NCBI RefSeq assembly: GCF_000309385.1
Contig: NZ_JH976538.1
Span: forward strand, 699,181 to 763,180
Direction: 5' to 3'
Length of the DNA: 64,000 nucleotides
Source: Nodosilinea nodulosa PCC 7104
GTDB taxonomy: Bacteria > Cyanobacteriota > Cyanobacteriia > Phormidesmidales > Phormidesmidaceae
The translations under genes and the position numbers were made by a program. Below the pieces are notes generated by a model. The model worked only from the letters and a program-made list of their open reading frames with translations. It had not been told where the DNA came from and did no database searches. Position 1 is the stretch's first letter; each line of letters starts with the position of its first letter. This document shows positions 20,891 through 39,118 of the stretch, in pieces.

Positions 20891-20913
20891 CAAGGTTTGC
20901 GGTGGAGAGATGG

Positions 20914-21429: not shown

Positions 21430-21430
21430 A

Positions 21431-21619: not shown

Positions 21620-21627
21620 GGATAACA

Positions 21628-21657
21628 ACCCTCTCGACCGGAGGGAGAAAAGAGGGT
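21628..21657 (-). terminator. Hairpin terminator, divergent cassette-family member
   Basis: Arms ACCCTCTC / GAGGGAG-AGAGGGT around a CCGG centre; the U tract is weak (GGTTGTTATC). It closes 21677-21886. Confidence 0.5.
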
Positions 21658-21676
21658 AAAACTGTGCGATCGAAAG

Positions 21677-21886
21677 TTAGTCTTCTTCTTCTTCAATAGG
21701 ATTGTAGTCTTCGCAGTCAGAAGTTTGAGCATCACAAAGAACTCGGTAAAGAACTAAGTCCATAGGCCTTGTTTTGGGAGCACCAAAGATGCCCCAGTCT
21801 TTTGCGCATTGAGCAACTTCGTCAAAGGTGATGCCACCACCTGTTGAATCAGATTCCCAGCGGCTCTTAAACTCTTCTTTGGTCAT
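21677..21886 (-). CDS. Small acidic hypothetical protein, 69 aa
   Basis: Not recognised. It ends in an acidic tail (NPIEEEED). Spaced 2 nt after the stop of 21889-22116, so the two form an operon. Confidence 0.65.
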   Translation of the reverse strand: MTKEEFKSRWESDSTGGGITFDEVAQCAKDWGIFGAPKTRPMDLVLYRVLCDAQTSDCEDYNPIEEEED

Positions 21887-21888
21887 AG

Positions 21889-22116
21889 TTAGCCTACAAG
21901 TTTTGGTTGTTCGATGTATTCTTTCTCGCCAGCGGGAAAGTATTGAGAGCTAAATTGTGCCTGAGAATAGACCATTGAATAATCATTAGGCCAATTTTGC
22001 TCAGCCCATTTCTGGGCAAAGTCTACATCATCGGTATTCAATCGAATCCAATGATTTCGCCATTCGCTACGCTGGCGAAAAGTAATGTAAGTTCCGGGTA
22101 AAACGGGGCTAGACAT
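21889..22116 (-). CDS. Small hypothetical protein, 75 aa
   Basis: Not recognised. Aromatic-rich (NDYSMVYSQAQFSSQYFPAG) and soluble. First gene of the pair ending at 21677. Confidence 0.65.
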   Translation of the reverse strand: MSSPVLPGTYITFRQRSEWRNHWIRLNTDDVDFAQKWAEQNWPNDYSMVYSQAQFSSQYFPAGEKEYIEQPKLVG

Positions 22117-22187
22117 CAGTGAATCTTTCCTTTTGGGGTAAGTTGGATGGGTTGAATTTCGCCGCTATAACCAATTATCCCATAGAG

Positions 22188-22574
22188 TTAATGTGTAGCC
22201 AAGTCGGCAAACTTGACGGAGTGAAAAGGGTATTTCTCGCCTGGGCGATCGTCAAAGTTCCAGCATTCACAGTAGGTATCAGCGTGGGCCGATAGGTAGC
22301 CCTCAATGAATGGCTGCTTGAAAACGTGCTCACTTATAGAAATGGCTGGGCCAGTCAAAAAATGTTGATAGCCTAACCGCCAACCAATACACTCAGAGGT
22401 TCCTTGAGTGTAAGGATTTCTGGTCTGTTCGCAGTCAAGGTAGATGTGAGTGCAAGCATGATGCCATGCCTCGCCCCAGGTGGCTTCTGCACCATAGGCA
22501 CACAGAAGCTCGCCACGTTCTGAATGCCACTTGTAAGAGCCATCAGAGAGTTTTTCGATAGAGATTTCTAGCAT
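22188..22574 (-). CDS. Hypothetical protein, 128 aa
   Basis: Not recognised. It is Trp/His/Cys-rich, with HHACTHIYLDCEQT and DTYCECWNFDD segments that could bind a metal. It follows the family hairpin at 22609-22631; no strong terminator is seen after it. Confidence 0.65.
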   Translation of the reverse strand: MLEISIEKLSDGSYKWHSERGELLCAYGAEATWGEAWHHACTHIYLDCEQTRNPYTQGTSECIGWRLGYQHFLTGPAISISEHVFKQPFIEGYLSAHADTYCECWNFDDRPGEKYPFHSVKFADLATH

Positions 22575-22608
22575 GAGTAATAAAGGTAAACATGGTTATC
22601 AGAAAATC

Positions 22609-22631
22609 TCCTGCCCCCGGAGGGGCAGGGA
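22609..22631 (-). terminator. GC hairpin terminator, cassette family
   Basis: Stem TCCTGCCCC / GGGGCAGGGA, with AGATTTTC downstream on the - strand. It closes 22638-23054. Confidence 0.65.
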
Positions 22632-22637
22632 GGAGTA

Positions 22638-23054
22638 TTAACGAGCAGCAGCTAGTTCACGCTCAAGCTGGTCCCAGTTGACAGGGCCTAGCTCGAAATC
22701 AGATTCATCGGCAAAAGCTGGGGGTAGCTCGGCGGGGATATACTGCTTGCGCTTTGTGTAGTTATCCCAGGCTATGTAGGCACCGAGGCCAAAGGCTCCG
22801 ACCAAGCAGACACCCAGGGTGATCGGATTGGTGACAACTTCCATGATGGTTGCTCCAGTCTCAGCTAAGAGCGAACCAGCCTCAGCCGTAAGCGAAGTGC
22901 CTTCAGCAATATCGGCAGTCGTAGAAACAGCATCGACGGTAGTAGAAACAGCGTCGGCAGCAGTAGCAGTAGCCTCCATTGCATCGGCGGCGATCGCAGT
23001 AGCTTCAGCGGCCTCAGCAGCAGTCATTACGTCAGCATAGTGAGATGCAATCAT
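22638..23054 (-). CDS. Ala/Thr-rich membrane protein, 138 aa
   Basis: Start at 23054 (MIASHYADVMTAAEAAEATA), which fits the ATTGCCATGA leader shared by other cassettes. Residues 1-75 are an Ala/Thr/Glu/Asp repeat helix with a periodicity of about 7-8 residues, then a membrane segment (ITLGVCLVGAFGLGAYIAW), then a charged tail. The ORF could extend to 23084. It probably places the helical repeat on one side of a membrane (cytoplasmic or thylakoid). Function unknown. Confidence 0.7.
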   Translation of the reverse strand: MIASHYADVMTAAEAAEATAIAADAMEATATAADAVSTTVDAVSTTADIAEGTSLTAEAGSLLAETGATIMEVVTNPITLGVCLVGAFGLGAYIAWDNYTKRKQYIPAELPPAFADESDFELGPVNWDQLERELAAAR

Positions 23055-23082
23055 GGCAATAAATAGGTAGAAGAACAGGCAC

Positions 23083-23115
23083 AAAAAACCCCCTCCCTAC
23101 GGAGTAGGGAAGGGG
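23083..23115 (-). terminator. GC hairpin terminator, cassette family
   Basis: Stem CCCCTCCCTAC / GTAGGGAAGGGG, followed by six T on the - strand. Loop sequence differs from the majority but the arms obey the same plan. It closes 23151-23450. Confidence 0.8.
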
Positions 23116-23150
23116 CGTTTAGCATTGAATTGGTGATATGGCCCATCTTA

Positions 23151-23450
23151 TCAGATAGGCATTTCACCTAGCCATTGATACACCTGGGCATCACAAAAGC
23201 CGCAGGGTATCCAGATGGGAGGATCAAGAGGTTTGATAAGACCGTCTTCGAGCAAAGCCCGGTCGAGGGCCTGGTTTTCGGACCAGTTCTTGATTAGAAC
23301 GCAGCCACTTGGAAGTAGCTGCTTGGTATTGACCGTGGCGACGGCATAAGGCTCAAAGCCTAACAGAAGATGGATGCAAATATTTCGAGGATTTGCATAC
23401 CACAGTGGTTTGATAGCCAATTGTTTGCCGTGCCAAAGGATAGTTGTCAT
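23151..23450 (-). CDS. Small hypothetical protein, 99 aa
   Basis: Not recognised. The N-terminus is beta-rich and aromatic (ILWHGKQLAIKPLWYA). The C-terminus has two Cys (IPCGFCDAQVYQWL). Single-gene cassette with terminators on both sides. Confidence 0.65.
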   Translation of the reverse strand: MTTILWHGKQLAIKPLWYANPRNICIHLLLGFEPYAVATVNTKQLLPSGCVLIKNWSENQALDRALLEDGLIKPLDPPIWIPCGFCDAQVYQWLGEMPI

Positions 23451-23485
23451 AAGCGTTCACAGATAATAGGTCAGTCTTAAACCGG

Positions 23486-23527
23486 GAAAAAGAGTATCCA
23501 ATCCCCGGCTTTTCGCTAGGGATTGGG
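23486..23527 (-). terminator. Intrinsic terminator
   Basis: Stem CCAATCCC (23499-23506) pairs with GGGATTGG (23519-23526); the - strand continues to TTTTTCCC. It closes 23544-24065. Confidence 0.7.
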
Positions 23528-23543
23528 TGAGTAGTGGTCTATG

Positions 23544-24065
23544 TCAATTTGAGGGAGTTGCGAGATTGGATAGAGCTTCGTATAGCTCGGCCTTGGACAT
23601 GCGGCTATAGCGGGGTAGCTCGATGCGCTTTGCGATCGCCCGCAGTTGGTTGCGGGACATTTGAGCAGTGACCATAGGAACAGGCTCAGCCTCGGCCTCG
23701 GCCCGGTCAGGTTCGGCCTCTACCACGGCGGTTGAAGCAACCTCGATGGTGGTAACAGAAGCCTCAGCAGGGGCCTCGGTAGCAGGCATGAGCAGAGCAA
23801 TAGGACTAGCAGCAGGCATGAGCTGGGCCGGGGGCTTGGCGACGGCAGGCAGTGCAGAGACAACCTGCAAGTCAATCCAGAGCTTGACCAGGATAAAGAC
23901 GGTCGCCACGATGGCGTAAACCACGGCGAAGGAGAACCGGGCCAGCCATGCAATCAACTGGGCGGCGGCGATCGCCTTCGGAGAGGCCCAGCGATATGCA
24001 GCGTAGAGAGTCGAAGCGATTTGAAGGGTGTTGTCGGTAGAGTTGATCAGGGTAGCGTAAGTCAT
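23544..24065 (-). CDS. Membrane protein with Rho_N/SAP-like C-terminal domain, 173 aa
   Basis: Start at 24065 (MTYATLINSTDN); an in-frame extension to 24182 would run through the upstream terminator. A transmembrane helix (FAVVYAIVATVFILVKLWI, about 42-60) is followed by an Ala/Pro/Glu-rich flexible region (about 70-135). The C-terminal 35 residues (MSRNQLRAIAKRIELPRYSR then MSKAELYEAL) match the helix-extended-loop-helix pattern of Rho_N/SAP domains, which bind nucleic acid. It may tether DNA or RNA to a membrane (inference). Confidence 0.7.
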   Translation of the reverse strand: MTYATLINSTDNTLQIASTLYAAYRWASPKAIAAAQLIAWLARFSFAVVYAIVATVFILVKLWIDLQVVSALPAVAKPPAQLMPAASPIALLMPATEAPAEASVTTIEVASTAVVEAEPDRAEAEAEPVPMVTAQMSRNQLRAIAKRIELPRYSRMSKAELYEALSNLATPSN

Positions 24066-24150
24066 TTGAAGTTTCCTTTGCCCGTGTAGAGAGTGGGCAC
24101 TAATGGTGAATAGATGCCGTGAAGAGATTGGCATCTTGATCCACAGAATA

Positions 24151-24179
24151 ACCCCCAAGCCTCGGAGAGGCAAGGGGGT
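24151..24179 (-). terminator. GC hairpin terminator, cassette family
   Basis: Stem ACCCCCAAGCCTC / GAGGCAAGGGGGT, on the - strand followed by TATTCTG. It closes 24203-24649; weak U tract. Confidence 0.6.
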
Positions 24180-24202
24180 CAATTTTGGATTTTAGAAATA
24201 GC

Positions 24203-24649
24203 CTATGGATAGTTGAGCAGGTTGTTTGCAGTAGCGTAATACCACGAACTGGCAACAACCTCACCATGGCAATTGAACGGATAGTCAGCTTCGTCAAGAA
24301 TACCGTGGACGCAGAAATTTTCCTTGTAGCAAAAACAGCCTAATTGGCTGTCTGTGTCCAGCGATCGAAGCTCATCAAGCACAGCTTGACGAGTCGGAAA
24401 GTGAAAGTTTGCAACGGTAGAAGCGTTGAGTTCAGCCTTCAGGTATTCGGCGGCAGCTTGGGGCTGCATCCGGTCCTTCAAAACAAGTTTTATGTAGGCC
24501 CTGAACAGCTTCACGCATTGTTTGCGGTCGGCAACAGTTCTGCCAACCGGGAATGGATTGGCCAGGGCTGATTGGGCCTTGCCCTTGCCGCCGCGCCCAA
24601 TGTAATGGGCCAGTGGAGTTGAGCCAATGGTAGTAATAATCATGGGCAT
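24203..24649 (-). CDS. DUF4326 domain protein, 148 aa
   Basis: Shows the DUF4326 plan: YIGRGGKGKAQSALANPFPV (G-R...NPF-G), then DRKQC...YI, a LK-EL helix and the metal-site-like GCFCYKENFCVHGI. The family is widespread in phages and bacteria; its Cys/His end suggests metal binding and function is not settled. A second start at 24643 is possible. Single-gene cassette. Confidence 0.8.
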   Translation of the reverse strand: MPMIITTIGSTPLAHYIGRGGKGKAQSALANPFPVGRTVADRKQCVKLFRAYIKLVLKDRMQPQAAAEYLKAELNASTVANFHFPTRQAVLDELRSLDTDSQLGCFCYKENFCVHGILDEADYPFNCHGEVVASSWYYATANNLLNYP

Positions 24650-24673
24650 TAGAGATGAATTGCGATCGCAGAT

Positions 24674-24706
24674 AGAACCCTCATCCCCTCGGAGAGGGGA
24701 GAGGGT
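24674..24706 (-). terminator. Hairpin terminator, cassette family (TCGGAGA type)
   Basis: Stem ACCCTC..CCCCTC / GAGGGG..GAGGGT, followed on the - strand by TCTATC and a HIP1 site. It closes 24720-24914. Confidence 0.65.
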
Positions 24707-24719
24707 AGTTAGTCAAAGT

Positions 24720-24914
24720 TTAGAACCAGATGGTGCTAAATTCTCCTGCGTAATAAGTGCCAAGATAACGACGGCGGGGACCAGTCAAGATGTTGATAAG
24801 ATCGTCTTTGTCAGGCTCAAGCCAGATGTCTCGATAGCCACGCTGAAGCAGTTGATCGATCACCTGGGAGATTGAGCCTTGTATGTCAAAGTCATGGGTA
24901 AAGTCAGGTTTCAT
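24720..24914 (-). CDS. Small hypothetical protein, 64 aa
   Basis: Not recognised. An amphipathic helix (ISQVIDQLLQRGYRDIWL) is followed by an acidic loop and beta segments. Single-gene cassette; preceded by a HIP1-terminator unit and followed by another. Confidence 0.6.
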   Translation of the reverse strand: MKPDFTHDFDIQGSISQVIDQLLQRGYRDIWLEPDKDDLINILTGPRRRYLGTYYAGEFSTIWF

Positions 24915-24943
24915 AGGTGATAGAAATGAGATGAGCGATCGCT

Positions 24944-24977
24944 AAAAAACCCCCTGGACCCCGGAGGGGCCAGAGGG
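24944..24977 (-). terminator. GC hairpin terminator with HIP1 tail, cassette family
   Basis: Majority-type stem, followed by six T and then AGCGATCGC on the - strand. It closes 24986-25414. Confidence 0.8.
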
Positions 24978-24985
24978 TAAATGGA

Positions 24986-25414
24986 TTAAGCGGCGTTGCG
25001 AATGATGGCGGACAGTTGAGATCTGATGTCTTTTTCAGGGGTGATATGAATAACGCCCCAGAGGTCCAGGCCAAGCCGTTTATAGGCAGTCGCAAGCTGA
25101 GCTTGCTTCCTGGCCTTGGCGGCTAAAGCTCGGTCGTTAAGAGTAATGTCAAGGCCGATTACATGGCCTAGATAGAGGATCACTGCATCTAGCCCAAAGA
25201 CTAGATCCAAATATTCTGTTGGCGGAATTTCTAGCTCACCAAAGATTTGATTGAGGTGAAATTCAGCCGCTTCAATGCGGGCAGAAGGAATGCAGTCGGC
25301 AGCGACATTTTGTAAGATGGCCAGGTCAAAGTAGATTGGCTTAGCTCTAAGAGCCTTGAGTTCAGACATAGTGTTTTGCTCTGCGGTCAGAGCAGCAAGA
25401 GAGCCGTAGGTCAT
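24986..25414 (-). CDS. Hypothetical protein, 142 aa
   Basis: Not recognised. Mostly helical, with a hydrophobic centre (EYLDLVFGLDAVILYLGHVI) that may be buried or membrane-associated. Starts are possible at 25414 or at the internal Met 16. Single-gene cassette flanked by HIP1-terminator units. Confidence 0.65.
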   Translation of the reverse strand: MTYGSLAALTAEQNTMSELKALRAKPIYFDLAILQNVAADCIPSARIEAAEFHLNQIFGELEIPPTEYLDLVFGLDAVILYLGHVIGLDITLNDRALAAKARKQAQLATAYKRLGLDLWGVIHITPEKDIRSQLSAIIRNAA

Positions 25415-25451
25415 AGTAGGTTATGGCGATTGCTTGAAATGAGCGATCGCC

Positions 25452-25486
25452 AAAAGAACCCCCCTAGCCCCGGAGGGGTAGGAGGG
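25452..25486 (-). terminator. GC hairpin terminator with HIP1 tail, cassette family
   Basis: Stem CCCCTAGCCCC / GGGGTAGGAGGG, followed by TTCTTTTGGCGATCGC on the - strand. It closes 25502-26002. Confidence 0.75.
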
Positions 25487-25501
25487 TCATTGGTTTAGGG
25501 A

Positions 25502-26002
25502 TTAGACAATTTGCCCACGGATACCAGCGGCCTTAGCGGCCTGGACCCGACCGGCAGCAATAGAAACGCTAGCCTTCAGGTCAAACTGGGCAGGAGCAAC
25601 TGAGATAGTTGCAGAAAGTTCGTGGTCAAAGATAACTTGCAAAAGACGAACAGCCGCACCCTCTACATCAGTAGTAGGGCAGACCACAACAATCTCGTCG
25701 CCGGAATACCAGCGAAACAAGGAGTTTGAGCCACGAGAAGAACGAAAGCAGGCAAGGGCAGAACGAATGCGATCGTCTACAGCTTCGTAGCCCAACTCGT
25801 CGTTGAGCTGGTGGATGTGGTCAAGGTCAAAAAAGATGACGGAGTAGCGACCGTGACGCAACCTGGCCCAGAGTAATTCAAGCCTCTGGCGAGTGCCGAC
25901 CCCATAGGCCGGGCAGGTGGTCAGGACATCTACTACCTTACGGTGGTAGATGTAGAAGGAGATAAAGCCAGCAATATAAGCAATGATGGCAACAAGAATC
26001 AT
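25502..26002 (-). CDS. Membrane-anchored GGDEF-domain protein, 166 aa
   Basis: Start at 26002 (MILVAIIAYIAGFISFYIYH), fitting the ATTGCCATGA cassette leader; the first 20 residues are a transmembrane anchor. A single GGDEF-type domain follows: DVLTTCPAYGVGTRQ (25-39), VIFFDLDHIHQLND (55-68, metal site), RWYSGDEIVVV (97-107, active-site loop with SGDEI in place of GGDEF) and QAAKAAGIRGQI at the end. The catalytic acids D-E of the loop and the FFDLD aspartates are kept, so cyclase or cyclic oligonucleotide synthesis is possible but unproven; there is no upstream I-site RxxD evident. Candidate host-signalling effector. Confidence 0.8.
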   Translation of the reverse strand: MILVAIIAYIAGFISFYIYHRKVVDVLTTCPAYGVGTRQRLELLWARLRHGRYSVIFFDLDHIHQLNDELGYEAVDDRIRSALACFRSSRGSNSLFRWYSGDEIVVVCPTTDVEGAAVRLLQVIFDHELSATISVAPAQFDLKASVSIAAGRVQAAKAAGIRGQIV

Positions 26003-26033
26003 GGCAATTAAGTAGGCAGTGCGATCGCCAAAA

Positions 26034-26059
26034 AGCCCCCACCCCATAGGGGCAGGGGC
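26034..26059 (-). terminator. GC hairpin terminator with HIP1 tail
   Basis: Stem GCCCC-CACCCC / GGGGCAGGGGC, followed by TTTTTGGCGATCGC on the - strand. It closes 26084-26404. Loop differs from the majority. Confidence 0.7.
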
Positions 26060-26083
26060 AGACTCAAGGAGAGGGATTAGGCG

Positions 26084-26404
26084 TTAGTTGTCCAATGCAC
26101 ACTTGGACTGTTCAGCCCAGTTCTTAGCTTTGGCAATGCATGTTTCGTAGTCAGTGGCCTTGAGGTAGCTGTGGTCGATGGTCGTATCAGCGCCAGGGTC
26201 AACGGGGTTGACAATAGGCTGGTCAACCGCATTGTTGTCCAATGCACACTTGGACTGTTCAGCCCAGGTCTTGGCATTGGCGATGCAGGTTTCGTAGGGA
26301 GTAGCAGCAACAACGGGATGGACGGGAGCCGCAACAGCCACGACAGCAGCAACGATAGGAGCGGCAGCAGTGATGATTTGAACAGCGATGGAGATGGATT
26401 TCAT
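26084..26404 (-). CDS. Exported protein with duplicated Cys motif, 106 aa
   Basis: Start at 26404. Residues 1-33 form a signal peptide or anchor ending in PVVAATP. The mature part contains two copies of YETCIANAKTWAEQSKCALD (second copy IAKAKN), separated by an acidic Asp/Pro linker. Each copy has two Cys, probably a disulfide in the periplasm. The DNA repeat is near-identical (26087-26120 and 26233-26266), so the duplication is recent. Function unknown; single-gene cassette. Confidence 0.75.
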   Translation of the reverse strand: MKSISIAVQIITAAAPIVAAVVAVAAPVHPVVAATPYETCIANAKTWAEQSKCALDNNAVDQPIVNPVDPGADTTIDHSYLKATDYETCIAKAKNWAEQSKCALDN

Positions 26405-26464
26405 AGTTGATAAGTCCTTGTAGGTTAGGTGTGTTATTCGCAACAAGTGAAGGTTGCGATCGCC

Positions 26465-26500
26465 AAAAGAACCCCCTGGTCCCCGGAGGGGCCAGAGGGT
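26465..26500 (-). terminator. GC hairpin terminator with HIP1 tail, cassette family
   Basis: Majority-type stem followed by TTCTTTTGGCGATCGC on the - strand. It closes 26521-26739. Confidence 0.8.
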
Positions 26501-26520
26501 AAAGGTCTAGTCGGAGTCAG

Positions 26521-26739
26521 TTAGTTCGAGTAGGCGGCGCAAACCTCGGCAGCCAGCGCTAATAGCTCGGCTACCTCGGGGTCAGCCTCATGGCCAGGGT
26601 TGATGACCGTGGCTTCTCCGCAGAGAACAACCGCTTCGCTATAACCAGGCAGGGCAACGATGCCCTTGCCGGAAGCATGAGAGGCAGCGGCGCACAGGAA
26701 GATAAACAGAGGGACAATAAAGGCGATAATGAGTTTCAT
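26521..26739 (-). CDS. Small exported protein, 72 aa
   Basis: MKLIIAFIVPLFIFLCAAAS is a signal peptide with likely cleavage after SHA-S. The mature peptide is about 50 residues, acidic, with two Cys. Leader has the ATTGCCATGA form seen in other cassettes. Function unknown. Confidence 0.7.
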   Translation of the reverse strand: MKLIIAFIVPLFIFLCAAASHASGKGIVALPGYSEAVVLCGEATVINPGHEADPEVAELLALAAEVCAAYSN

Positions 26740-26768
26740 GGCAATTGCAAGTAGAGATTGCGATCGCC

Positions 26769-26805
26769 AAAAGAACCCTCACCGTCCCCGGAGGGGCGGG
26801 AGGGT
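26769..26805 (-). terminator. GC hairpin terminator with HIP1 tail, cassette family
   Basis: Stem ACCCTC.CCGTCCCC / GGGGCGGGAGGGT, followed by TTCTTTTGGCGATCGC on the - strand. It closes 26814-26903. Confidence 0.8.
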
Positions 26806-26813
26806 CATAGGGC

Positions 26814-26903
26814 TTAGTCGGTAGTGAATCGGTAAACGATGCCGAGCATGGCACCGCCGACAGTCAGGGAATAGAGAACAGCCAGTAGGCACTGAGTAAT
26901 CAT
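26814..26903 (-). CDS. 29-residue membrane micropeptide
   Basis: ATG at 26901-26903 within the standard ATTGCCATGA leader; stop at 26814-26816 just before the next hairpin. The product is MITQCLLAVLYSLTVGGAML then GIVYRFTTD, a single hydrophobic helix with a short polar end. It occupies the whole interval between two family terminators, which argues for a real gene. Possibly a membrane-active peptide. Confidence 0.6.
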   Translation of the reverse strand: MITQCLLAVLYSLTVGGAMLGIVYRFTTD

Positions 26904-26933
26904 GGCAATGAGAGATATAGATTGCGATCGCCA

Positions 26934-26968
26934 AAAGAACCCTCATCCCCTCGGAGAGGGGAGAGGGT
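26934..26968 (-). terminator. Hairpin terminator with HIP1 tail (TCGGAGA type)
   Basis: Stem ACCCTC.CCCCTC / GAGGGG.GAGGGT, followed by TTCTTTTGGCGATCGC on the - strand. It closes 26980-27153. Confidence 0.8.
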
Positions 26969-26979
26969 AAGGCGAGTCG

Positions 26980-27153
26980 CTAGAAGGCGATAAGGTCATA
27001 GTCGGATGGAACAGGCCGAACGATAGGCTGGCGCATAGAGACTTGAACCTCGGCACCATCGGCCATAGCGGCCAGTGCAACCTGACGGTTGGTGGTGCAG
27101 TAGGTTTCAAAGCAACCAGTCGATTCGGCGTGGATAACGTGATAGTCGAACAT
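26980..27153 (-). CDS. Small hypothetical protein, 57 aa
   Basis: Start at 27153 (MFDYHVIHAESTG), because the longer frame to 27258 runs through the upstream hairpin. Not recognised; one short Cys pair (CFETYC). First coding cassette after the structured leader. Confidence 0.6.
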   Translation of the reverse strand: MFDYHVIHAESTGCFETYCTTNRQVALAAMADGAEVQVSMRQPIVRPVPSDYDLIAF

Positions 27154-27181
27154 GATAGATAGAGGATGACAACACCCAGTG

Positions 27182-27215
27182 AAGAACCCTCGTCGTCCCC
27201 GGAGGGGCGAGAGGG
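27182..27215 (-). terminator. GC hairpin, cassette family, upstream of first cassette
   Basis: Stem ACCCTCG.CGTCCCC / GGGGCGAGAGGGA, followed by TTCTTC on the - strand. No gene ends just upstream, so it would act as an attenuator in the leader or terminate a non-coding transcript. Confidence 0.55.
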
Positions 27216-27289
27216 ATAGGGATAGTGCGATCGGCAGTGGGCCAGCGTAGCCAGCCATGCGATCGTATAGCGTCCCCAGAGGGGAATCG

Positions 27290-27493
27290 CTAGGGGTCAG
27301 CCCCGGCCCCCAGTCTTGGGGTCAGGTCAACCCCCAGCCCCTACCAGGGGAGAGACTACCCCCACCCCTAGCAAGGGGCCTCGCACCCTAGCCCTGGTCC
27401 CAGGGAACTGGTCAGCCCCAGCCCCACTCATGGGACTCCACCCCCCCGGCCCCCTCAAGGGGAGCCACTACCCCTAGCCCCTAGCAAGGGGAA
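27290..27493. repeat. Tandem array of ~28-nt mini-hairpin units
   Basis: About seven degenerate units of 27-29 nt, each ending in a C3-5 / G3-5 mini-hairpin such as CCCCTAGCAAGGGG, CCCCTACCAGGGG or CCCTGGTCCCAGGG. The unit period is regular but the sequence varies. On the - strand this gives about fourteen G-runs, so quadruplex formation is possible. It lies in the gene-free leader upstream of the cassette array. Flanking DNA carries four CATGCG(GC)GATCG sites. Confidence 0.6.
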
Positions 27494-27666
27494 CGGTACT
27501 CTGCTGTGGGTCTACCATGCGATCGGAACGCTCACACCGCAGCCCGGTCGGCCTGCGTCAGACAGAGGTTAGCGGCCTGGTCCATGCGGCGATCGCCACC
27601 TGGCCAGCGATGACCCGTCGCAGTCTCCCTATGCTCGACATGCGATCGCTAACCCGTGGGCATCGG

Positions 27667-27744
27667 GGATCATAAAAAAATACCCCTTTTTGCCCACGGC
27701 AAGAGATATCGAGATCCCTTCTCTCCTCTCACCCCCAAATTGCC
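27667..27744 (-). repeat. 78-bp inverted repeat, left copy (faces left)
   Basis: Perfect reverse complement of 32243-32320; identity stops abruptly at both ends. Read on the - strand it leads into the cassette array. It may be a duplicated promoter/leader element or a recombination site. It contains a TGCC-GTG-GGCA mini-hairpin and a T-rich stretch, but no canonical -35/-10 pair is evident. Confidence 0.85.
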
Positions 27745-27757
27745 ATTTCGTTTTGAC

Positions 27758-27767
27758 AGTTTTAACT
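27758..27767. promoter_or_regulatory. Operator-like palindrome AGTTTTAACT
   Basis: ARTT-NN-AACT family member 13 nt from the left 78-bp copy, on its upstream side with respect to leftward transcription. Confidence 0.45.
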
Positions 27768-27847
27768 AGAAAACCGAAAAGAGGGAATAGGTGAAGAGGA
27801 GAATGGGAAAAGATTGTAATCTACTGAAAAAATTAGATTAACAAACA

Positions 27848-27890
27848 GAAATGCCGCCGACCTACAGGGAGAAAGATCGACGGCATTCTG
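27848..27890 (-). terminator. Long-stem terminator after the 1161-residue gene
   Basis: Arms at 27848-27862 and 27875-27890 (CAGAAATGCCGCCGA / TCGACGGCATTCTG) pair with few mismatches; the - strand continues TGTTTGTT. A second nested hairpin lies at 27903-27939. Probably ends the transcript of 28003-31488. Confidence 0.6.
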
Positions 27891-28002
27891 TGAGTTGAGG
27901 GCCGGAGTTGCCTTTCCAAAGGCATTGTCTCTCCGGTTGAGACGATTATAACTTCAAGATGGGAAAAGCATCAACAGGTTTCAGGAATTTTTCAGGACAT
28001 TG

Positions 28003-31000
28003 TTAGGAGTAAAACTGAATTTCCTCGTTGACTTTCTTTCCACGCCTTGCAATTTCTTGAAGTGCAGCATTGTCTCCAACAGCTTGCGCCTGACGATAAG
28101 CATTTCTGAGGCCTTCGAGCTGGCCTTGGAGTCGGCCAACATGTTCAGAACGAAACTGTGGATTATGGTTTAGCTCTCGGCTTTTAAGAGTTGTGCCCTG
28201 ATTGAGCATGATGGCTCGTTGTCTAGGGTCTTGAGGCAGCTGTTTAACTCCGGGCGGCAAGTAGGAGACGGAATAGACACCGTTACCAGTGGCTTCAGGG
28301 AACGGATTAGCAGGCTGGGCCTGGGTACGCTGAACGACCGGGCCGGACGGACCACCCTGCGGGATGATCATAGAGCCAACCTGCCGTCTGGCCTGGGCCA
28401 CTTCATCAGCGATCGCCTGGTTTCGGACGATCTGAGCATTAGAGTCCTGCGCCCATTGCCGCTGAGCGGGGCTGAGGGCCGACCCAGAGGCCGGAGTAAC
28501 GACCCTGGGGACCGGAATATTAGCCGTAGGCACCCCGGCCATGTTGGTCGCCTGAGCATTGAGGTTTGCAATCAGGCTTTGCCCGCCCATTCCGCGGACT
28601 CCCCCTACAATTTCCTCTCTAGGAACTGGAGCTTGCCGAAAAACGGTAGGTGACTGGAGCACCTGAGAGGCGAGGGCCTGGATTTGGCCAGCCTGGGCAG
28701 AGCTTGCAGGGGCAACCTGGCGAGATGCCGCCATGTCACGGGCCATCTGGGCACGAACCTCTTGCAGTGTGATGCTGGGCTGCCCCAGCCAGTCGGCTTC
28801 TGCCTGAGATAAAGAGTCGAGCTGCCCGGTTTGGCGGTTAAACTGACGTCGAGCAGTGGGCAGACCACCCATCGCGTTTACTTCGGTCAGGTTCAGGGCA
28901 TGTAGACCCCGCTGCCGCCGCTGAGCATTGAGCTGACCCAGCTCATCAAGAGGAACTTGGACAGCTGCATAGTCAGGAGAGGTGTTGACGTTCCAACCTT
29001 CGGCCCTGGCCTGCTCGATTTCGGCACGGGCTGCGGCAAGTTTGTCTTCTGCGTTGGTGTGACGCAGTTCTCTGTACCGAGACGGGGCAGAGCCAGAGCC
29101 GACGCTGACAAAATCGTAGGGCTGGGCAGTCATGGCACCGCCACCAGCACCCTGCACAACCGTACCGGGGTTGATGATCTGCACATTGCCTCGGCTATCG
29201 GTCAGGTATTGAACCCCGGTCCTGACCTGATTGTGCTTAACGGTGGGGTCGACCTGGTGCAATGCCCTGAAGACTGGCTCAGTGCTGCGCCAAGCTGGAC
29301 TATCGGGGGGGGCAGACAGTACGCCAGCATCTTCATCCATGTGCTTTGTGATGATGCTGGAGCTATCAGGAGAGCCATAGAGGCGATAGCCTTGCTTCTG
29401 CAACGCTTCGATCGGTACATCCTGGCCATTAACCCGGACGGACCGGGCCGACGGGGCAGACTGGGGCAGGGACAATACCTGACGTACAGGATTCTGTTGG
29501 TTCCGTCGTAAGACCTCTTCGAGCGGCAGATCCTCGGTGACGACATTGGACCCCTGACGAGTCTTGGTCGTTAGGAAGTCGGGCATCTCACCCATTTCGT
29601 CAAAGGCTCTTTGAATGTTGCCCTGCAATGCCTGCTGGCTATTCATGAGCGAAATGACCCGCTCTTGGCCAACACGGGCCTGAATCTTCTTGGACATCAA
29701 ATCGTCCAACTGGCCTTGCAGGTAGTCAACAGGTAGACCTTGCTGCTGCCGTTGCAGTGCAAGATTGCTGATCGCCTCATAGGCCGCATCGCCACCAGCT
29801 GCATCATATTGATCCAGTGCTCGGGTAACGTTGCCTTCTTCAAAGGCTAGTTTTTTGCGAATCAGGGCCGGGGCATCATAGAGGGCATCGCCGGGGAAGG
29901 TTGGATCGTCTGCGAAGTAGCGGGGGTTCTCCGAGCTGAACGGAGTCGGCAGCCGAGTAGGCTGGTCAGGCGAAGGCGCATCGATCGACATCCAAGCGGG
30001 CTTAGGCTCTAGCGAAGTAAATGGGCTGTAAATGTCTGAGCGAGTCGCAACATAAGCGTTCTGGTTCAGACCGTACTGGCCGGGACCACGAACGGCAGGC
30101 CTAACGCTGCCTCCGCTACGCTGACCGTTGTCGAGAAAGCCAAGGCCGGGGATGACTCGGTTGCTTTCGTCAGTGGCAGTAAGGCTGTAGTTAGGTTGCC
30201 TTGAGCCGGAGATAAACCCATACTCGGCCTCTCGGGCCTCGGGCACCACATAGGTCGTGTTCAGATTTAGGTCAGTGGTCACAGGCTGAGAGCTGGCAGC
30301 AATCCGAGCACGGGCAGCAGCGTCATTGCTGGCCAGCGCATCATCCCTGATGCTCCGTTGTAGGTGCATGTTGGCCAGGGATTCGGCCTGGGCCTGCTGG
30401 CCTCGGGCGGCGAGGAATGGGGTAGTCTCTGCCCCTCGGGTAAATGCAGCGTCGTAAGCGTTCCCGGTCAAAGAAAGGACCGGATTGCCGCTGGTCGGAG
30501 CCGGATAGCTGCGGCTGTCTAGATCGTCGCTGGTCTTGCCTGGTTGCCAGCCTGATACCCTATCTCGGGTATCGATCGCTTCTGAGTAGGTGCGAGGGAC
30601 CAAGGTACGAGTCGCGGCGGAATGAATACCCTCATCCATGCCGACCAAGCGAGGAACTTCAGACGCATCTACGAGAGTTGACCCACCGGCACCCGTAAAC
30701 ACGTTGCCGTCCGGGTCGGTCCCCTGGTACATAAATCGGTTCGGCACATCCTGCACGGTTCCCGGATTTGTCCAGGCATAGGGGGAAGATGTGGGAAAGA
30801 CCGGGTATTGTCTGCCGCTGGCAATGTTGCCGTAGACATCAGTAAGCGTTTGACTAACATCGACACCGGGGCTATAGCCGCCAGCGATCGCCTGCGGCCC
30901 GCCCATCTTGTCGATGAGGCCGGGGGCACCGGAGGCACCACCTAGATAGTCAGCAGCAGCACGACCAGCCAAACCTCCCTGGGTAAAGTCAACATTGGTC

Positions 31001-31488
31001 CGTGCCCCAGTTACCGAGTCAACGCCCAGGTTATAGGGCATGTTGTATTTGGCAGAGGTTGCAGCGCCTGGGTTGGCCCCAACAATGCGATCGTAGAGGC
31101 CTGGAAACTCTTTCTGAAAGCCGCCCGCTACAGGAGAACCATCGGGTGCAGTACTGCCCAGCGACCCCCAGGGCATCTCTGGACGGTAGACCGTTTCATC
31201 CGAGCCGGGAACGCTTAGCCGAGATGGATAAAGCTCTGTGGCATAGGAACCTTGACTCGGGTAGCTGGCCCTTGCCGCAGGGGCGGGGGAGCCGGTCGGC
31301 CCGTCATAGTCAGCCTGCAAGGAATTTAGAAAAGCATTCTCCTGGCTGGTGCGCTGCCTATAGGGCTTTGCTTCGATTCGCTGGACCCGTCCAACTCGGG
31401 CATCGCCAGCAGCAGCCAGTTTTTGAGCCAGTGACCCCGATTGACCGTCTAGAAAAGCGGTCAGGTTAGTAATTTTTTGAAGCGCCAT
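28003..31488 (-). CDS. Large virion-like protein, 1161 aa
   Basis: Start at 31488 (MALQKITNLTAFLDGQSGS). It is Ala/Gly/Pro/Gln/Arg-rich with little hydrophobic character, no Cys clusters, and a C-terminal helical region (about 1120-1160, coiled-coil-like with QLEGLRNAYRQAQAVGDNAA). The composition matches the rightward virion genes, not the early genes, suggesting an internal or tail-associated structural protein. It is the only large structural-type gene on the - strand and lies inside the segment bracketed by 78-bp inverted repeats. No enzyme motif recognised. Confidence 0.75.
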   Translation of the reverse strand: MALQKITNLTAFLDGQSGSLAQKLAAAGDARVGRVQRIEAKPYRQRTSQENAFLNSLQADYDGPTGSPAPAARASYPSQGSYATELYPSRLSVPGSDETVYRPEMPWGSLGSTAPDGSPVAGGFQKEFPGLYDRIVGANPGAATSAKYNMPYNLGVDSVTGARTNVDFTQGGLAGRAAADYLGGASGAPGLIDKMGGPQAIAGGYSPGVDVSQTLTDVYGNIASGRQYPVFPTSSPYAWTNPGTVQDVPNRFMYQGTDPDGNVFTGAGGSTLVDASEVPRLVGMDEGIHSAATRTLVPRTYSEAIDTRDRVSGWQPGKTSDDLDSRSYPAPTSGNPVLSLTGNAYDAAFTRGAETTPFLAARGQQAQAESLANMHLQRSIRDDALASNDAAARARIAASSQPVTTDLNLNTTYVVPEAREAEYGFISGSRQPNYSLTATDESNRVIPGLGFLDNGQRSGGSVRPAVRGPGQYGLNQNAYVATRSDIYSPFTSLEPKPAWMSIDAPSPDQPTRLPTPFSSENPRYFADDPTFPGDALYDAPALIRKKLAFEEGNVTRALDQYDAAGGDAAYEAISNLALQRQQQGLPVDYLQGQLDDLMSKKIQARVGQERVISLMNSQQALQGNIQRAFDEMGEMPDFLTTKTRQGSNVVTEDLPLEEVLRRNQQNPVRQVLSLPQSAPSARSVRVNGQDVPIEALQKQGYRLYGSPDSSSIITKHMDEDAGVLSAPPDSPAWRSTEPVFRALHQVDPTVKHNQVRTGVQYLTDSRGNVQIINPGTVVQGAGGGAMTAQPYDFVSVGSGSAPSRYRELRHTNAEDKLAAARAEIEQARAEGWNVNTSPDYAAVQVPLDELGQLNAQRRQRGLHALNLTEVNAMGGLPTARRQFNRQTGQLDSLSQAEADWLGQPSITLQEVRAQMARDMAASRQVAPASSAQAGQIQALASQVLQSPTVFRQAPVPREEIVGGVRGMGGQSLIANLNAQATNMAGVPTANIPVPRVVTPASGSALSPAQRQWAQDSNAQIVRNQAIADEVAQARRQVGSMIIPQGGPSGPVVQRTQAQPANPFPEATGNGVYSVSYLPPGVKQLPQDPRQRAIMLNQGTTLKSRELNHNPQFRSEHVGRLQGQLEGLRNAYRQAQAVGDNAALQEIARRGKKVNEEIQFYS

Positions 31489-31555
31489 GTTACCCAAGAA
31501 GTAGAGTTCGGGGAGCCTCCACTAGGCATATTGTACGGCAGACTTAGAGGAAAGC

Positions 31556-32197
31556 CTAAGTCTTAAAAAGAATGACCAGGGCAAAGGCCGCTAGGAGAAA
31601 GAGAAGGAATATCAGCAACCTTACAATGGTCGTGTCTTGAAAAAAGTCAACCAAAACATGGATGAGATGGACATACCAAATCTCTGAGGTTGCAGCGGGT
31701 GCAGGGGCCGAAGCTACCTGGACAACAGCTTGCTGTTCTTCCTGCGACTCTTTTGGCCGTGAAGGTTCGATCAATGGAACCGTGTCTAACTGATCGTCTT
31801 CAGAAGGGTGAAGGGTTATGTCAATTTGATAGGTAAAGATGATTTGAGTTTTTTCGTCTCTTCTACCGAAATAAGCGATCGAGTCTTCAATGATGGGATA
31901 CCAAGAGCCAGGCTTCAATATTTTTTTGTTGAAGGCTGTTTTTGATTGTCGTCCCATGTGTTTGATTTCCCAAACTAAATCCTCTTCGTTGTAACGAAGG
32001 AGGGCGTGTAGCTTGGAGACGTAGGGATCTCGAATCTGGATGTGAGTCTGTCGTTTGTCCAAATCAGTAGGCAGCGCCCTGCCTATGGTCCAGACGCGAT
32101 CAACAGGATAATTGCGTGAGTCCAAAATTCGTTCTGCGTAAGCAGCACCGATACGGATCAAAATCCGTTCGTTATATTCGTTAGATTGGTTTTCCAC
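31556..32197 (-). CDS. FHA-domain membrane protein, 213 aa
   Basis: N-terminal forkhead-associated domain with the core VWTIGRALPTD (about 35-45), then YVSKLHALLRY (59-69; S-x-x-H as in FHA loops) and a later HMGRQSKTAFN. A Pro/Ser/Glu/Ala-rich linker follows, and a C-terminal transmembrane helix (LLIFLLFLLAAFALVILF, about 194-211). FHA domains bind phosphothreonine peptides, so it may bind host phosphoproteins at the membrane. It is the first gene of the segment inside the inverted repeats. Confidence 0.8.
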   Translation of the reverse strand: MENQSNEYNERILIRIGAAYAERILDSRNYPVDRVWTIGRALPTDLDKRQTHIQIRDPYVSKLHALLRYNEEDLVWEIKHMGRQSKTAFNKKILKPGSWYPIIEDSIAYFGRRDEKTQIIFTYQIDITLHPSEDDQLDTVPLIEPSRPKESQEEQQAVVQVASAPAPAATSEIWYVHLIHVLVDFFQDTTIVRLLIFLLFLLAAFALVILFKT

Positions 32198-32242
32198 TGG
32201 GACAACAAATAAAAGAATTTTACCTATAGATTCGAGGGTTGA

Positions 32243-32320
32243 GGCAATTTGGGGGTGAGAGGAGAGAAGGGATCTCGATATCTCTTGCCGTGGGCAAAAA
32301 GGGGTATTTTTTTATGATCC
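32243..32320 (+). repeat. 78-bp inverted repeat, right copy (faces right)
   Basis: Perfect reverse complement of 27667-27744. Read on the + strand it leads into the late virion genes. Both copies thus have the same orientation relative to the transcription unit they face. Contains TTGCCG (32285-32290) and TATGAT (32313-32318), spaced 22 nt, longer than a sigma-70 spacer. Confidence 0.85.
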
Positions 32321-32361: not shown

Positions 32362-32439
32362 ATGGAGAAACGCTACGCTGGAATGAAGCTTCTAGAGCTG
32401 ATGAAGCGCCTAGAGCTAGCAAAAATTCTTAACCTATGA
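32362..32439 (+). CDS. 25-residue leader peptide
   Basis: ATG at 32362-32364 and TGA at 32437-32439, sharing ATGA with the start of the 466-residue gene. Product MEKRYAGMKLLELMKRLELA then KILNL would be a basic amphipathic helix. It could be a translational coupling leader for the late operon. Confidence 0.4.
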   Translation: MEKRYAGMKLLELMKRLELAKILNL

Positions 32440-33836
32440 TCAACGGTTTAGGGGGTGGGGCATCCGATCTTTGGGGTAAAGCTCAGAAGGTAGGGGCCGA
32501 TGTATGGAACGTAGCGCAACAGAACTTTGGTAGGTCTGTTGTGCAAGAAGCTCTTGACCAATCAAGGCGACCAGTTATAACAGATCCGCTCAAAATTAAG
32601 CGTGAGGAAGCGGCAAAGTTACAACGGTATGCAGATGGGTTAAAGGGGACTCCGGGACATGCAGAGGCCTTAGAGAGAGCCAGCAGAGCAAGCCAGGAAT
32701 TTCAGGCGGAACGGGCCAAAAACATTGCTGGCAAAACACTGGCTGATTACCTGTCAGATGCAAGTCGGTCCAAGTGGTGGTTGCTGAATGCGGCCCAGGC
32801 TGTCTCCGGCCTGGCTGGCCAGAAGATTATGAAGTCGGAAGGGTACGGCATGGGTGGGGCTTTGCTCGGCGGTGCTGCGCTGACCGGCCTCATGGAGGTG
32901 GCCACCGGGAACATTGACTTTACCAACTTGGATGAAGCGGGCAGACCCAAGGGGTACTCAACGCTATTTCCAAAGGAAATCGAGCAGGTTAACCCTGCCA
33001 CCGGAGAAACGGAAATTTACGTTGACCGGACCAAAAGCGCTAACCCAGTTGCAGAGCTGGCGGCTCGATACTTCCTGAACCGAACCGGGAACGTGCTGCC
33101 AGAGGATCAGTTCCTCCAGGAACGACCGGACGTAACCCCGGAGGAATATGCTCGATTCAAGGCCGCAAAGCGAGACAGACAATTTTTTGGGGTTGAGGAT
33201 TTACCGATCAGCGTCAGTGCTCCCATCGGTGCAATTGCGGGTGGGCTGATCGATGGCAAGCTGACCAAGCCTAGCCTGCGGGGGATGGTGGCAGGGGCGG
33301 TGCTCGGGCCGATTGCAAAACAAATAGCGATTGACGTTCCAACCGAGCTGGGGGTAATCCACGGGACCACAGAGACTCCTAACGACCCAATAGGCGAGGT
33401 TGAGTTTTTGGGGTATCGGGTTCCACTTAAAGCTGTTGTCGCTACTGCTGTTGGGGCAGCTGGCCTGAAGTATGGCGGGCGATACCTGAAAAACCAGGGA
33501 GCCAAGGTAGGTCAGATCAACCTGAATCTTGATGATGCTGTAGGGGGAGTAAAGCCGGGGCATAGATACTCTGTCGATGAAGTGATCGCCCAGGGTGGAG
33601 GAACTTACCGGGAACCGCCGCCCAGCTCTGGCTATCAAAATCAGGTCGATAATTCAGCAGTTCAGTACGGCTTAGACCTAGATGGCACAGGCCGAACACC
33701 TGAAGAATTTGTCCGGTTTGCTTCTGGCATTCCTCCAGAAAAAAGCGGTGCACTAAACTATGAAAACTTCCGCATTGAACAAGAGCGCAAAGAAATAGAG
33801 CGGATAAATTCAGTAATCGAAAGACTTTACGGATGA
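32436..33836 (+). CDS. Putative internal virion / ejection protein, 466 aa
   Basis: First long gene of the rightward virion block. It is a mixed helical protein with several Gly/Ala-rich hydrophobic stretches (GMGGALLGGAALTGLMEVAT; GAIAGGLIDG; VVATAVGAAGLKYGG) that could insert in or cross a membrane, embedded in charged helices. This resembles ejection or membrane-penetrating virion proteins in layout, but no family is recognised. Its ATG overlaps the stop of the 25-residue leader ORF. Confidence 0.7.
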   Translation: MINGLGGGASDLWGKAQKVGADVWNVAQQNFGRSVVQEALDQSRRPVITDPLKIKREEAAKLQRYADGLKGTPGHAEALERASRASQEFQAERAKNIAGKTLADYLSDASRSKWWLLNAAQAVSGLAGQKIMKSEGYGMGGALLGGAALTGLMEVATGNIDFTNLDEAGRPKGYSTLFPKEIEQVNPATGETEIYVDRTKSANPVAELAARYFLNRTGNVLPEDQFLQERPDVTPEEYARFKAAKRDRQFFGVEDLPISVSAPIGAIAGGLIDGKLTKPSLRGMVAGAVLGPIAKQIAIDVPTELGVIHGTTETPNDPIGEVEFLGYRVPLKAVVATAVGAAGLKYGGRYLKNQGAKVGQINLNLDDAVGGVKPGHRYSVDEVIAQGGGTYREPPPSSGYQNQVDNSAVQYGLDLDGTGRTPEEFVRFASGIPPEKSGALNYENFRIEQERKEIERINSVIERLYG

Positions 33837-37222: not shown

Positions 37223-37529
37223 GTGGCCCTACAAGAGGAAAATTATCTTGAACGACAGAATTAGAGCACTCATAAATGCCGGGAATTGGTACTTTGCAAT
37301 AGTCTTCGAAAGAGCCGTTATTGGCGCAGTTCAGCTAGAAAATGGATGGATCTTTTGCTCTGTAAGGTATTGCGCTGACCCAAAAATGTTTGACTTGGAA
37401 ACAGGAAAAATGTTGGTTCGTGACGATATAATTGACCAAATTATTAGTTACGAAGCTTACAAAAGTGGGGATGTATCCGCACCCAAGGAAGCTTGGTATA
37501 AACTACCTGTTGTTGAAATGAAAGACTAA
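37176..37529 (+). CDS. Hypothetical protein, 117 aa
   Basis: Not recognised. The start overlaps the 3' end of the preceding gene by 47 nt; later starts in frame are possible. Beta-rich in its centre (WYFAIVFERAVIGAVQLENG). It ends on the first base of the TerL ATG. Confidence 0.55.
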   Translation: MGPWSKLNPKYMGPFKWPYKRKIILNDRIRALINAGNWYFAIVFERAVIGAVQLENGWIFCSVRYCADPKMFDLETGKMLVRDDIIDQIISYEAYKSGDVSAPKEAWYKLPVVEMKD

Positions 37530-39118
37530 TGCCCGTTCGCAGTTGGCGAGTTCATAATTTCAAGGCTCGTCACTATGCTGAACGATCGAAAGGGCTATTT
37601 ACAAGTCAAGAAGCGCTCGACGCAAGAGAAGATCTAGACAAATTCATTGAGTATGTGAGCGGGCACAAGGTCGCTCATTGCCACATGAAACGGTGGTCAG
37701 AGGCCTGGGCCACTGGCCGAGATAATGTGTTGCTCAAGAAAATTGCTGGGCCAAATGAATCGATCCTTGCTCCGCGAGGATCGGCCAAGTCTACTCGGGT
37801 AGCGTACTTTTTGGCCTGGACCATTGGACACAATCCGGCAATTCCGATCATCTACTTGTCCTACAAGTCAGACATTGCCTGTTCCCGCTCAAGGGTTATT
37901 CAGCGAATCATTGAAAGCCCCAAGTATCAAGAGGTTTTCCCGTGGATACGACCCAACAAAAAGCGATGGAATCAGTCAGAGTGGGAAATTGATAAAGCCT
38001 TTGCTGGGGTATCAAATCTTGAACAAGACTATACCCTGTATGCGGTTGGGATCGACGGGGGTATTGTCTCCAAACGATCGTGGCTCATCGTCGTAGATGA
38101 TCCGATCAAAAACCGTGAGTCAATCGAAAATCCAGACATTCGGGAGAAAATTTCTAATAACTGGCGAGATGCAGCCAAACCTACCTTGGTCCCTGGTGGT
38201 CGAATGCTGTCAATCGGAACCAGATTCAGGCCGGATGATATTCATGCCACCGACTTTAACAAGGAAAACGGTTGGAATATCATCGAGCAGCAGGCCATTA
38301 TTACCGACGAAGACGGGCAGGAGTCAAGCTACTGGGAAGAACGGTTTCCCTATCGGTCCCAGATCGTTAATGAATTCGGAGACGAAATCGAGGGTCTTTA
38401 CGAGATGCGGGAGAAGGACCCGGTTTCGTTCTCCTTCCAGTATCAGAACGTGGTCGTTCACTTGTCGAACATTGCCATCAATCCAGATTGGATCGTCTAC
38501 ACCTCGGTCATTCCCAAAGACCCGTTCAAGTATGGCCTTGGCCTGGACCTGTCCGGTGCAGCCCGTGAGCGAAACGACTTCACCGCCATGGTCCTCGGCA
38601 GCCTAGAGCGCACCATGGAAGAACGCAGGCGGAAAGTGAGGGATAGGCTAACCATCCTCGAAGCGGTGCGCGGCAGATGGCCAGGAAACCTCGACAAGAT
38701 CGATAAAATTCTTGAGCTGTGCGTTGAATGGGGAATCATCTTCGAGACAGATAGCGAAGAGTATCCCTATCAGCCAAATGAAAACAAAGGCCTAACTGTC
38801 TTTGCTGAAGCTGTTCAGTACCAGGTCAGCTTTCAATATGACTGGAAGCGAATCATTGAAGGAAAGTACAAGTTGTGGAATTTGAGTTGTAAGGGAGTCA
38901 AGGTAAAGGGTGACAAAGATCTACGATTGAAATCAGTTACGGGTGTTTTTCAGGATGGTCTTATAAAATTTAATGAGTATCGAGACATGAGCCGGTTGGT
39001 CACTGAACTAACAAATCACGGTGCTACCGACAACGATGATTTAGAAGATGCCTTTGTGCATCTGGTCAGAGGAATGGTTAAGTACAGGCCTATCACTACT
39101 GGAGAACAAGAGGAATGA
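37529..39118 (+). CDS. terL: Terminase large subunit
   Basis: 529 residues. ATPase: Walker A APRGSAKST (81-89), Walker B LIVVDDP (186-192) and coupling motif SIGTR (228-232). C-terminal RNase H-like nuclease: GLGLDLSGAARERNDF (first acidic residue at about 340) and DNDDLEDAF (about 501-509). It cuts and pumps DNA into the prohead with the small subunit and portal. The next ATG overlaps the stop. Confidence 0.9.
   Translation: MPVRSWRVHNFKARHYAERSKGLFTSQEALDAREDLDKFIEYVSGHKVAHCHMKRWSEAWATGRDNVLLKKIAGPNESILAPRGSAKSTRVAYFLAWTIGHNPAIPIIYLSYKSDIACSRSRVIQRIIESPKYQEVFPWIRPNKKRWNQSEWEIDKAFAGVSNLEQDYTLYAVGIDGGIVSKRSWLIVVDDPIKNRESIENPDIREKISNNWRDAAKPTLVPGGRMLSIGTRFRPDDIHATDFNKENGWNIIEQQAIITDEDGQESSYWEERFPYRSQIVNEFGDEIEGLYEMREKDPVSFSFQYQNVVVHLSNIAINPDWIVYTSVIPKDPFKYGLGLDLSGAARERNDFTAMVLGSLERTMEERRRKVRDRLTILEAVRGRWPGNLDKIDKILELCVEWGIIFETDSEEYPYQPNENKGLTVFAEAVQYQVSFQYDWKRIIEGKYKLWNLSCKGVKVKGDKDLRLKSVTGVFQDGLIKFNEYRDMSRLVTELTNHGATDNDDLEDAFVHLVRGMVKYRPITTGEQEE

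Follow-up and report, generated by a model that had tools for sequence, protein, structure and literature searches.

Paired outward-facing 78-bp repeats in a probable cyanobacterial prophage as candidate twin transcription-control elements

The inverted pair and its setting

The subject of this study is a 78-bp element present as an inverted pair in the genome of Nodosilinea nodulosa PCC 7104, within a stretch of 64,000 nucleotides (contig NZ_JH976538.1, positions 699,181 to 763,180; here 'the window') that was analyzed as a whole. The left copy (27667–27744, minus strand) reads leftward into an array of small genes, and the right copy (32243–32320, plus strand) reads rightward into an operon encoding terminase, portal and major head protein (MCP). 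The orientation of each copy relative to the operon that it faces is identical, both reading outward. A search of the window for exact repeats returned the pair as a maximal match, identical at 78/78 positions, which bears out the coordinates, length and sharp ends given in a first-pass annotation made from the letters alone, as well as its statement that the copies face outward into two different units. No second exact inverted repeat of at least 18 bp was found across the window, and the 6.9-Mb genome (two contigs) holds no copy at E <= 1e-3 beyond these two. For comparison, 171 other loci bearing a terminase or MCP gene (L012–L182; 1,901,523 bases in total) were scanned for exact inverted pairs of at least 22 bp with arms 0.8–15 kb apart. 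Just two had one, of 24 and 29 bp, so that a chance origin of the 78-bp pair is in practice excluded.

Two minus-strand genes lie between the copies. The one beside the right copy (31556–32197) encodes a protein of 213 aa with an FHA domain (PF00498, E=1.2e-7), as had been proposed, and a hydrophobic C-terminal segment. The other, which we call the giant gene (28003–31497), encodes 1164 aa from a TTG codon or 1161 aa from the first ATG and belongs to no known family: it has no match in Pfam, PHROGs or PADLOC and none by tblastn in 50,697 phage records, and its predicted structure (mean pLDDT 29.3) is unusable. None of these searches, nor the structure, backs the earlier description of the 1161-residue protein as 'virion-like'. 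Behind the giant gene, an inverted pair at 27850–27887 (minus strand) followed by TTTCTGTTT forms a hairpin that may mark the end of the FHA–giant unit.

The locus had at first been treated as a free phage, but it is most likely a prophage within a bacterial genome contig. A 60-bp direct repeat (59/60 identical) corresponding to the end of a tRNA-Ser(CGA) gene lies at window coordinates of about -14388 and 69816, and because of these repeats the locus is probably an 84.2-kb prophage in the tRNA-Ser gene (window coordinates -14388 to 69875), of which the window is a part. A gene beside the tRNA, at the attachment (att) site, gives a sub-threshold integrase match (PF00589, E=0.023). The many GCGATCGC sites (HIP1), like the relatives of the phage, point to a cyanobacterial host.

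The plus-strand genes for the terminase large subunit (37529–39118; phrog_38, E=1.5e-65), the portal or virion structural protein (40674–43019; phrog_20475, E=3.6e-153; 35% identical) and the major head protein (45558–46634; phrog_1357, E=2.5e-20; 56% identical) have homologs in Synechococcus phage S-EIV1 (KJ410740) at 35–56% identity, as do, at identities not included in this range, genes for other virion proteins. With all three of these proteins homologous, the phage belongs with the S-EIV1-like cyanophages, of which the prophage is probably a temperate member. Two candidate homologs of the giant gene within this group, the large first gene of the late region of S-EIV1 and a large gene in the S-EIV1-like region of another genome (G331), were rejected (hhalign probabilities of 0.1% and 0.0%, respectively). 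In the leftward direction, the phage encodes the small-gene array, SSB, a Gp157-like protein just below the cut-off, a probable exonuclease (phrog_298, E=3.8e-12), a weakly primase-like protein (E=2e-4) and a DNA polymerase III beta-like protein. An HTH_3-like gene, also just below the cut-off, is located at 6545–7249.

A diverged relative with the same layout

The first-pass annotation had proposed a search for the element in relatives, and a pair with the same layout was indeed found in one diverged relative, the 35-kb IMG/VR contig 3300044626_000768, whose terminase, portal and first virion gene are 71%, 59% and 53% identical to those of the window. A 13-nt core of the element occurs twice on this contig, facing outward. 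It lies within arms of 68 nt that are identical at 66/68 positions, 4867 nt apart and directed outward; the counterpart of the left copy is at 6206–6273 and that of the right copy at 1271–1338 in the coordinates of L198, the relative's locus. The arms enclose an FHA gene and a giant gene whose order and orientation match those of the window. The FHA ortholog (223 aa, 32% identical) also matches PF00498, and the giant protein has 1266 aa and is 26% identical to that of the window. Beyond the right arm lies the orthologous virion operon and beyond the left arm a small-gene array. The hairpin following the giant gene, just inside the left copy, can be seen by eye in both phages.

When all four copies are aligned as far as the end of the core, the two copies of one phage are 97–100% identical (72/72 in the window, 66/68 in the relative) and copies of different phages 59–62% (40–42/68), with no indel across the 68 nt. 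Three blocks at fixed spacing are common to both phages; from the inner to the outer end these are TTGGG, a central CTCGATA and AAAAGGGGTATTTTTTTA. The last of these is an invariant core, identical in all four copies and located in the window at 27673–27690 (minus strand) and 32297–32314 (plus strand). As judged from these alignments, the two copies evolve in concert, being alike within a phage and diverged between phages. A single old pair whose arms recombine with each other and so stay alike seems more likely than an independent duplication, at the same two places, in each lineage, and such recombination is plausible because the phage has the probable exonuclease, SSB and the Gp157-like protein.

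This contig is the only close relative among the matches listed. Two profile scans for relatives were followed through 80 loci each, of at least 600 matches, and the relative's contig is outside these 80, so that further close relatives may exist; a query built from the two terminases returned just this contig again. The core motif occurs in 14 stretches of the viral contig collection, and the relative's two are the only ones to carry the remainder of the element; at E <= 1e-5, nothing encoded by the other 12 is related to the window proteins used as queries. In a more distant relative (contig of L012; terminase 43%), the 13-nt core is present once, with one mismatch. The window proteins P0001 and P0002 retrieved no relatives from the viral contig collection, and among 290 genomes P0001 is found in its own genome only. 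Searches with the portal and with the major head protein matched three and five of 388 genomes, respectively, the genome of origin included in each case and two of the five being weak. A profile scan of genome contigs gave 11 loci, all on contigs of metagenome-assembled genomes (MAGs) or bins, and these were scanned for inverted pairs. S-EIV1 itself differs from the window in lacking an FHA match and any inverted pair of more than 17 nt at a spacing above 400 bp.

Several further features were seen in the two phages. The relative's major head gene is interrupted three times (L010 13771–14046 and 14328–14655, with a third gap at 15068–15497), Rfam recognizing group I introns at two of the three interruptions; the window's gene is uninterrupted. 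A segment of 47 bp (45012–45058), largely between two minus-strand open reading frames (ORFs) to the left of the major head gene, is 91% identical to the relative. The portal ORF overlaps the next ORF by about 680 nt in a different frame (42337–43019), and a comparable overlap, of about 590 nt, exists in the relative. Adjoining SSB-family genes in the relative (L198 11814–12281 and 12368–12757) are apparently a tandem duplication. In the window, a single minus-strand gene (55273–56316) encodes a protein that combines a Dam-type methylase domain with DUF1643.

The flanks of the two copies

On the right, a leader ORF of 25 aa (32362–32439, plus strand) begins 47 nt after the end of the core in the window and 30 nt after it in the relative. 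It overlaps the beginning of the virion operon's first long gene (32436–33836, plus strand) and is conserved in the relative (MEKRYAGMKLLELMKRLELAKILNL in the window, MERRYAGVRLIELLKRLELARLINNGR in the relative); over 23 codons compared, three are identical, 12 synonymous and eight non-synonymous. As the end of the core adjoins this conserved ORF, the right element sits where a promoter or 5' leader would be expected. On its inner side, the gap to the start codon of the FHA gene is 45 nt in the window and 61 nt in the relative. A -10-like hexamer agreeing with TATAAT at 5/6 positions follows the core in all four copies, but shuffles of the same letters reach such a match in 24–44% of trials.

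The left copy is part of a hairpin that the right copy does not share. Its 5' arm (27691–27699, minus strand; CCGTGGGCA) lies inside the repeat, abutting the core, and pairs perfectly over 9 bp with a 3' arm outside the repeat (27654–27662, minus strand). The relative has a hairpin (AAAGAGTGG/CCACTCTTT) identically placed with respect to the core, and the two covary: eight of the nine pairs differ between the phages, the loops being 28 and 25 nt. The window's 3' arm was located by search, and the relative's arm then fell at the identical position. An exact partner arm arose by chance in 85 and 54 of 200,000 trials (single-base shuffles of 40 downstream nucleotides), and none is present within 40 nt after the right copy in either phage. 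When the 10-nt flank sequence that holds the left 3' arm was sought as a repeated site, seven matches with at most one mismatch were obtained against 4.5 expected.

Beyond the left copy runs a GC-rich leader (27160–27666, minus strand), about 500 nt long in the window and about 400 nt in the relative, up to the first likely gene of the array, which starts at a chosen ATG near 27153. Leader and left copy together fold better than shuffled sequences (z = -3.75 in the window and -5.00 in the relative), and both the minimum-energy and the centroid fold contain the hairpin in either phage; the opposite strands also beat shuffles (z = -3.35 and -3.86, respectively). A shorter fold favors a competing structure for the relative's left copy.

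The small-gene array itself (19850–27207, minus strand) contains 15 repeated hairpins, mostly intergenic, 10 of them with a T-tail, and that of the relative (L198 6493–13670, plus strand) contains 21 with different sequences, both counts resting on patterns chosen by eye. A strict scan for terminators finds seven on the minus strand and none on the plus strand at 19.9–27.4 kb, and 12 on the array strand against none on the other in an 18-kb stretch of the relative. The same scan gives three and none on the two strands of the virion region (32.3–56 kb) and three and five on those of the whole 79-kb S-EIV1 genome. If the tail is ignored, the array has 12 strong hairpins on one strand and 10 on the other, against two and none in an equal length at 32.4–40 kb; the array counts are nearly equal because hairpins are palindromes. 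Within a phage the array hairpins resemble one another, but they differ from one phage to the other, and GCGATCG occurs within 45 nt after the hairpin at eight of the 15 window sites. Both arrays encode a protein ending in Rho_N (window 23544–24182, minus strand; relative L198 9872–10303, plus strand), with scores of 24.8 bits, just below the cut-off of 24.9, and 34.2 bits, respectively. A gene for a GGDEF-domain protein (25502–26047, minus strand) also lies within the window's array.

Possible functions of the element

From these comparisons, we tentatively regard the repeats as promoter-type twin control elements, one heading each of the two main divergent operons, a reading to which we give a little under an even chance. 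That the element serves transcription control in one form or the other, as promoter or in antitermination, is a good deal more probable, and two identical copies would probably control both gene groups together. The idea of a duplicated control element for both units, one of two put forward in the first-pass annotation, gains support because several features recur in the relative: the pair and its outward direction, the genes between the arms, the core and the near-identity of the copies.

Each copy would carry a phage-regulated start signal (promoter or operator) for the operon that it faces, with TTGGG, CTCGATA and AAAAGGGGTATTTTTTTA at their fixed spacing as the signal blocks, and a single phage regulator could then fire both operons. 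The leftward operon would comprise the array and replication genes and the rightward one the virion genes, for which we infer early and late roles, and the FHA and giant genes would form a third, leftward unit bracketed between them. On the left, the element would additionally contribute to a hairpin and to the long leader that precedes the array with its many terminator-like hairpins. Recombination between the arms, by gene conversion and perhaps occasional inversion, would keep the copies identical within a genome.

In phage lambda, PL/OL and PR/OR flank the immunity region and point outward into divergent operons. The window is similar, in arrangement only, in that two related outward control regions bracket a separate unit. 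It differs in that the copies are identical over 78 bp and that the right-hand element faces the virion operon itself. The bracketed unit also differs, consisting of the FHA and giant genes, among which no repressor was recognized and no HTH was found by Pfam.

Several observations speak against twin promoters. The pair is present in one relative alone and absent from S-EIV1, and no outward pair exists in the S-EIV1-like regions of two other genomes (G331 and G307); the G331 region has an inverted pair of 1484 bp elsewhere within the 80 kb read, and no FHA hit listed for either genome falls inside the stretches read. As far as sampled, the twin-element pair is thus confined to a sub-branch of the S-EIV1-like lineage. 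A promoter scan of the region gave four sites against 2.8 +/- 1.6 expected, two of the four being the repeat itself, and because the -10-like matches are no better than those of shuffles, our estimate for a promoter was lowered slightly from an even chance. The hairpins just inside the left copies fail the terminator scans in both phages. No phage RNA polymerase, sigma factor or antiterminator was recognized among the prophage proteins searched, which cover part of its ORFs. Finally, since the left-only hairpin covaries as an RNA would, the left copy appears to be transcribed from upstream of the hairpin, which favors a role as RNA.

The strongest alternative takes up this last point. The element would act as RNA, as a cis antitermination site at the start of both operons from which polymerase would read through downstream terminators; on the sequence evidence we consider this unlikely, though a serious candidate. 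According to one paper (PMC9378689), putL and putR of phage HK022 are alike and about 70 nt long, and they follow PL and PR where the two divergent early operons begin. The window shares with that description two like elements of about 70 nt heading divergent operons, and terminators downstream of the left copy. The retention of the left-only 9-bp hairpin with eight of nine pairs changed, its presence in the folds of both leaders, the length of those leaders and the confinement of strict terminators to one strand of each array all argue for an RNA, as does the fact that the copy with the extra hairpin is the one heading the terminator-rich array. Each put copy has two stem-loops, unlike the element here: the right copy has no second arm in either phage, and the first half of the element has no stem common to both. 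The competing structure favored by the relative's left copy in the shorter fold also counts against an RNA, as do the three strict terminators in the virion region and the mere 45 or 61 nt between right copy and FHA start codon, which would hardly accommodate a promoter upstream if the element is transcribed. Scanning against Rfam at gathering thresholds gave no hit here, though whether a put family is among its entries was not checked. A more specific proposal, that the twin element is a new non-lambdoid read-through RNA, kept alike by conversion, whose covarying left hairpin licenses polymerase to cross an array in which many small genes follow intrinsic-terminator-like hairpins of a phage-specific repeated sequence, we find doubtful on the same evidence.

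A different view, the second offered in the first-pass annotation, is that the segment is invertible, site-specific or homologous recombination flipping the FHA–giant unit onto the strand of the virion genes. Invertible phage segments such as G of Mu and C of P1 are a few kilobases long and lie between inverted repeats, and the window likewise has such a segment in a phage. The arms are perfectly inverted, their near-identity within a phage could result from repeated strand exchange and phage recombination genes are present. However, both phages carry the segment in one and the same orientation, and the relative's metagenomic contig spans both arms. The window's contig has no match to PF00239 (resolvase/invertase), the serine recombinase family, and none to PF00589 at E <= 1e-3, the only recombinase-like gene found being the sub-threshold one at the att site. 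Internal dyads of the repeat do not exceed chance, the best being reached by 108/300 shuffles for the window and 31/300 for the relative, and the bracketed genes have no tail-fiber match in PHROGs. Furthermore, as both arms point outward, a flip would leave outward signals in place and make a weak switch. We therefore hold an invertible segment to be improbable, but homologous recombination may invert it at low frequency, and the copies could become homogenized in this way.

It is scarcely probable that the hairpin and repeats mark a replication origin or packaging site at the operon boundary. The boundary position, the GC-rich repeats beside the left copy and the AT-rich loop of the hairpin would suit such a site, but GC skew is positive throughout 25–33 kb without a switch, there are two copies rather than one and the leader ORF lies directly 3' of the right copy. 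Least probable, by a narrow margin, is a mobile cassette of the FHA and giant genes inserted between the operons with the repeats as its terminal inverted repeats: the repeats do lie at the ends of the segment, and pair and unit occur together in both phages and are both absent from S-EIV1, but neither gene matches a transposase in Pfam or PHROGs, the flanks have one base in common at the ends and hence no target duplication, the right copy adjoins the conserved leader ORF in both phages and the bracketed proteins are 26–32% alike while the arms are near-identical.

No description of such a twin pair turned up in the literature searched, and no account of gene control in S-EIV1-like phages either, the S-EIV1 genome paper being outside that search. 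A phage transposon region with short inverted repeats (PMC4909266) was set aside as unrelated.

Under the favored reading of twin control elements, a pair that is identical within a phage yet changes between phages suggests a regulator and site that co-evolve. If instead the element acts as RNA, it would represent a put-like system outside the lambdoid phages. In S-EIV1-like phages of this kind, the 78-bp element may offer a handle for finding the regulator and for following the timing of both operons.

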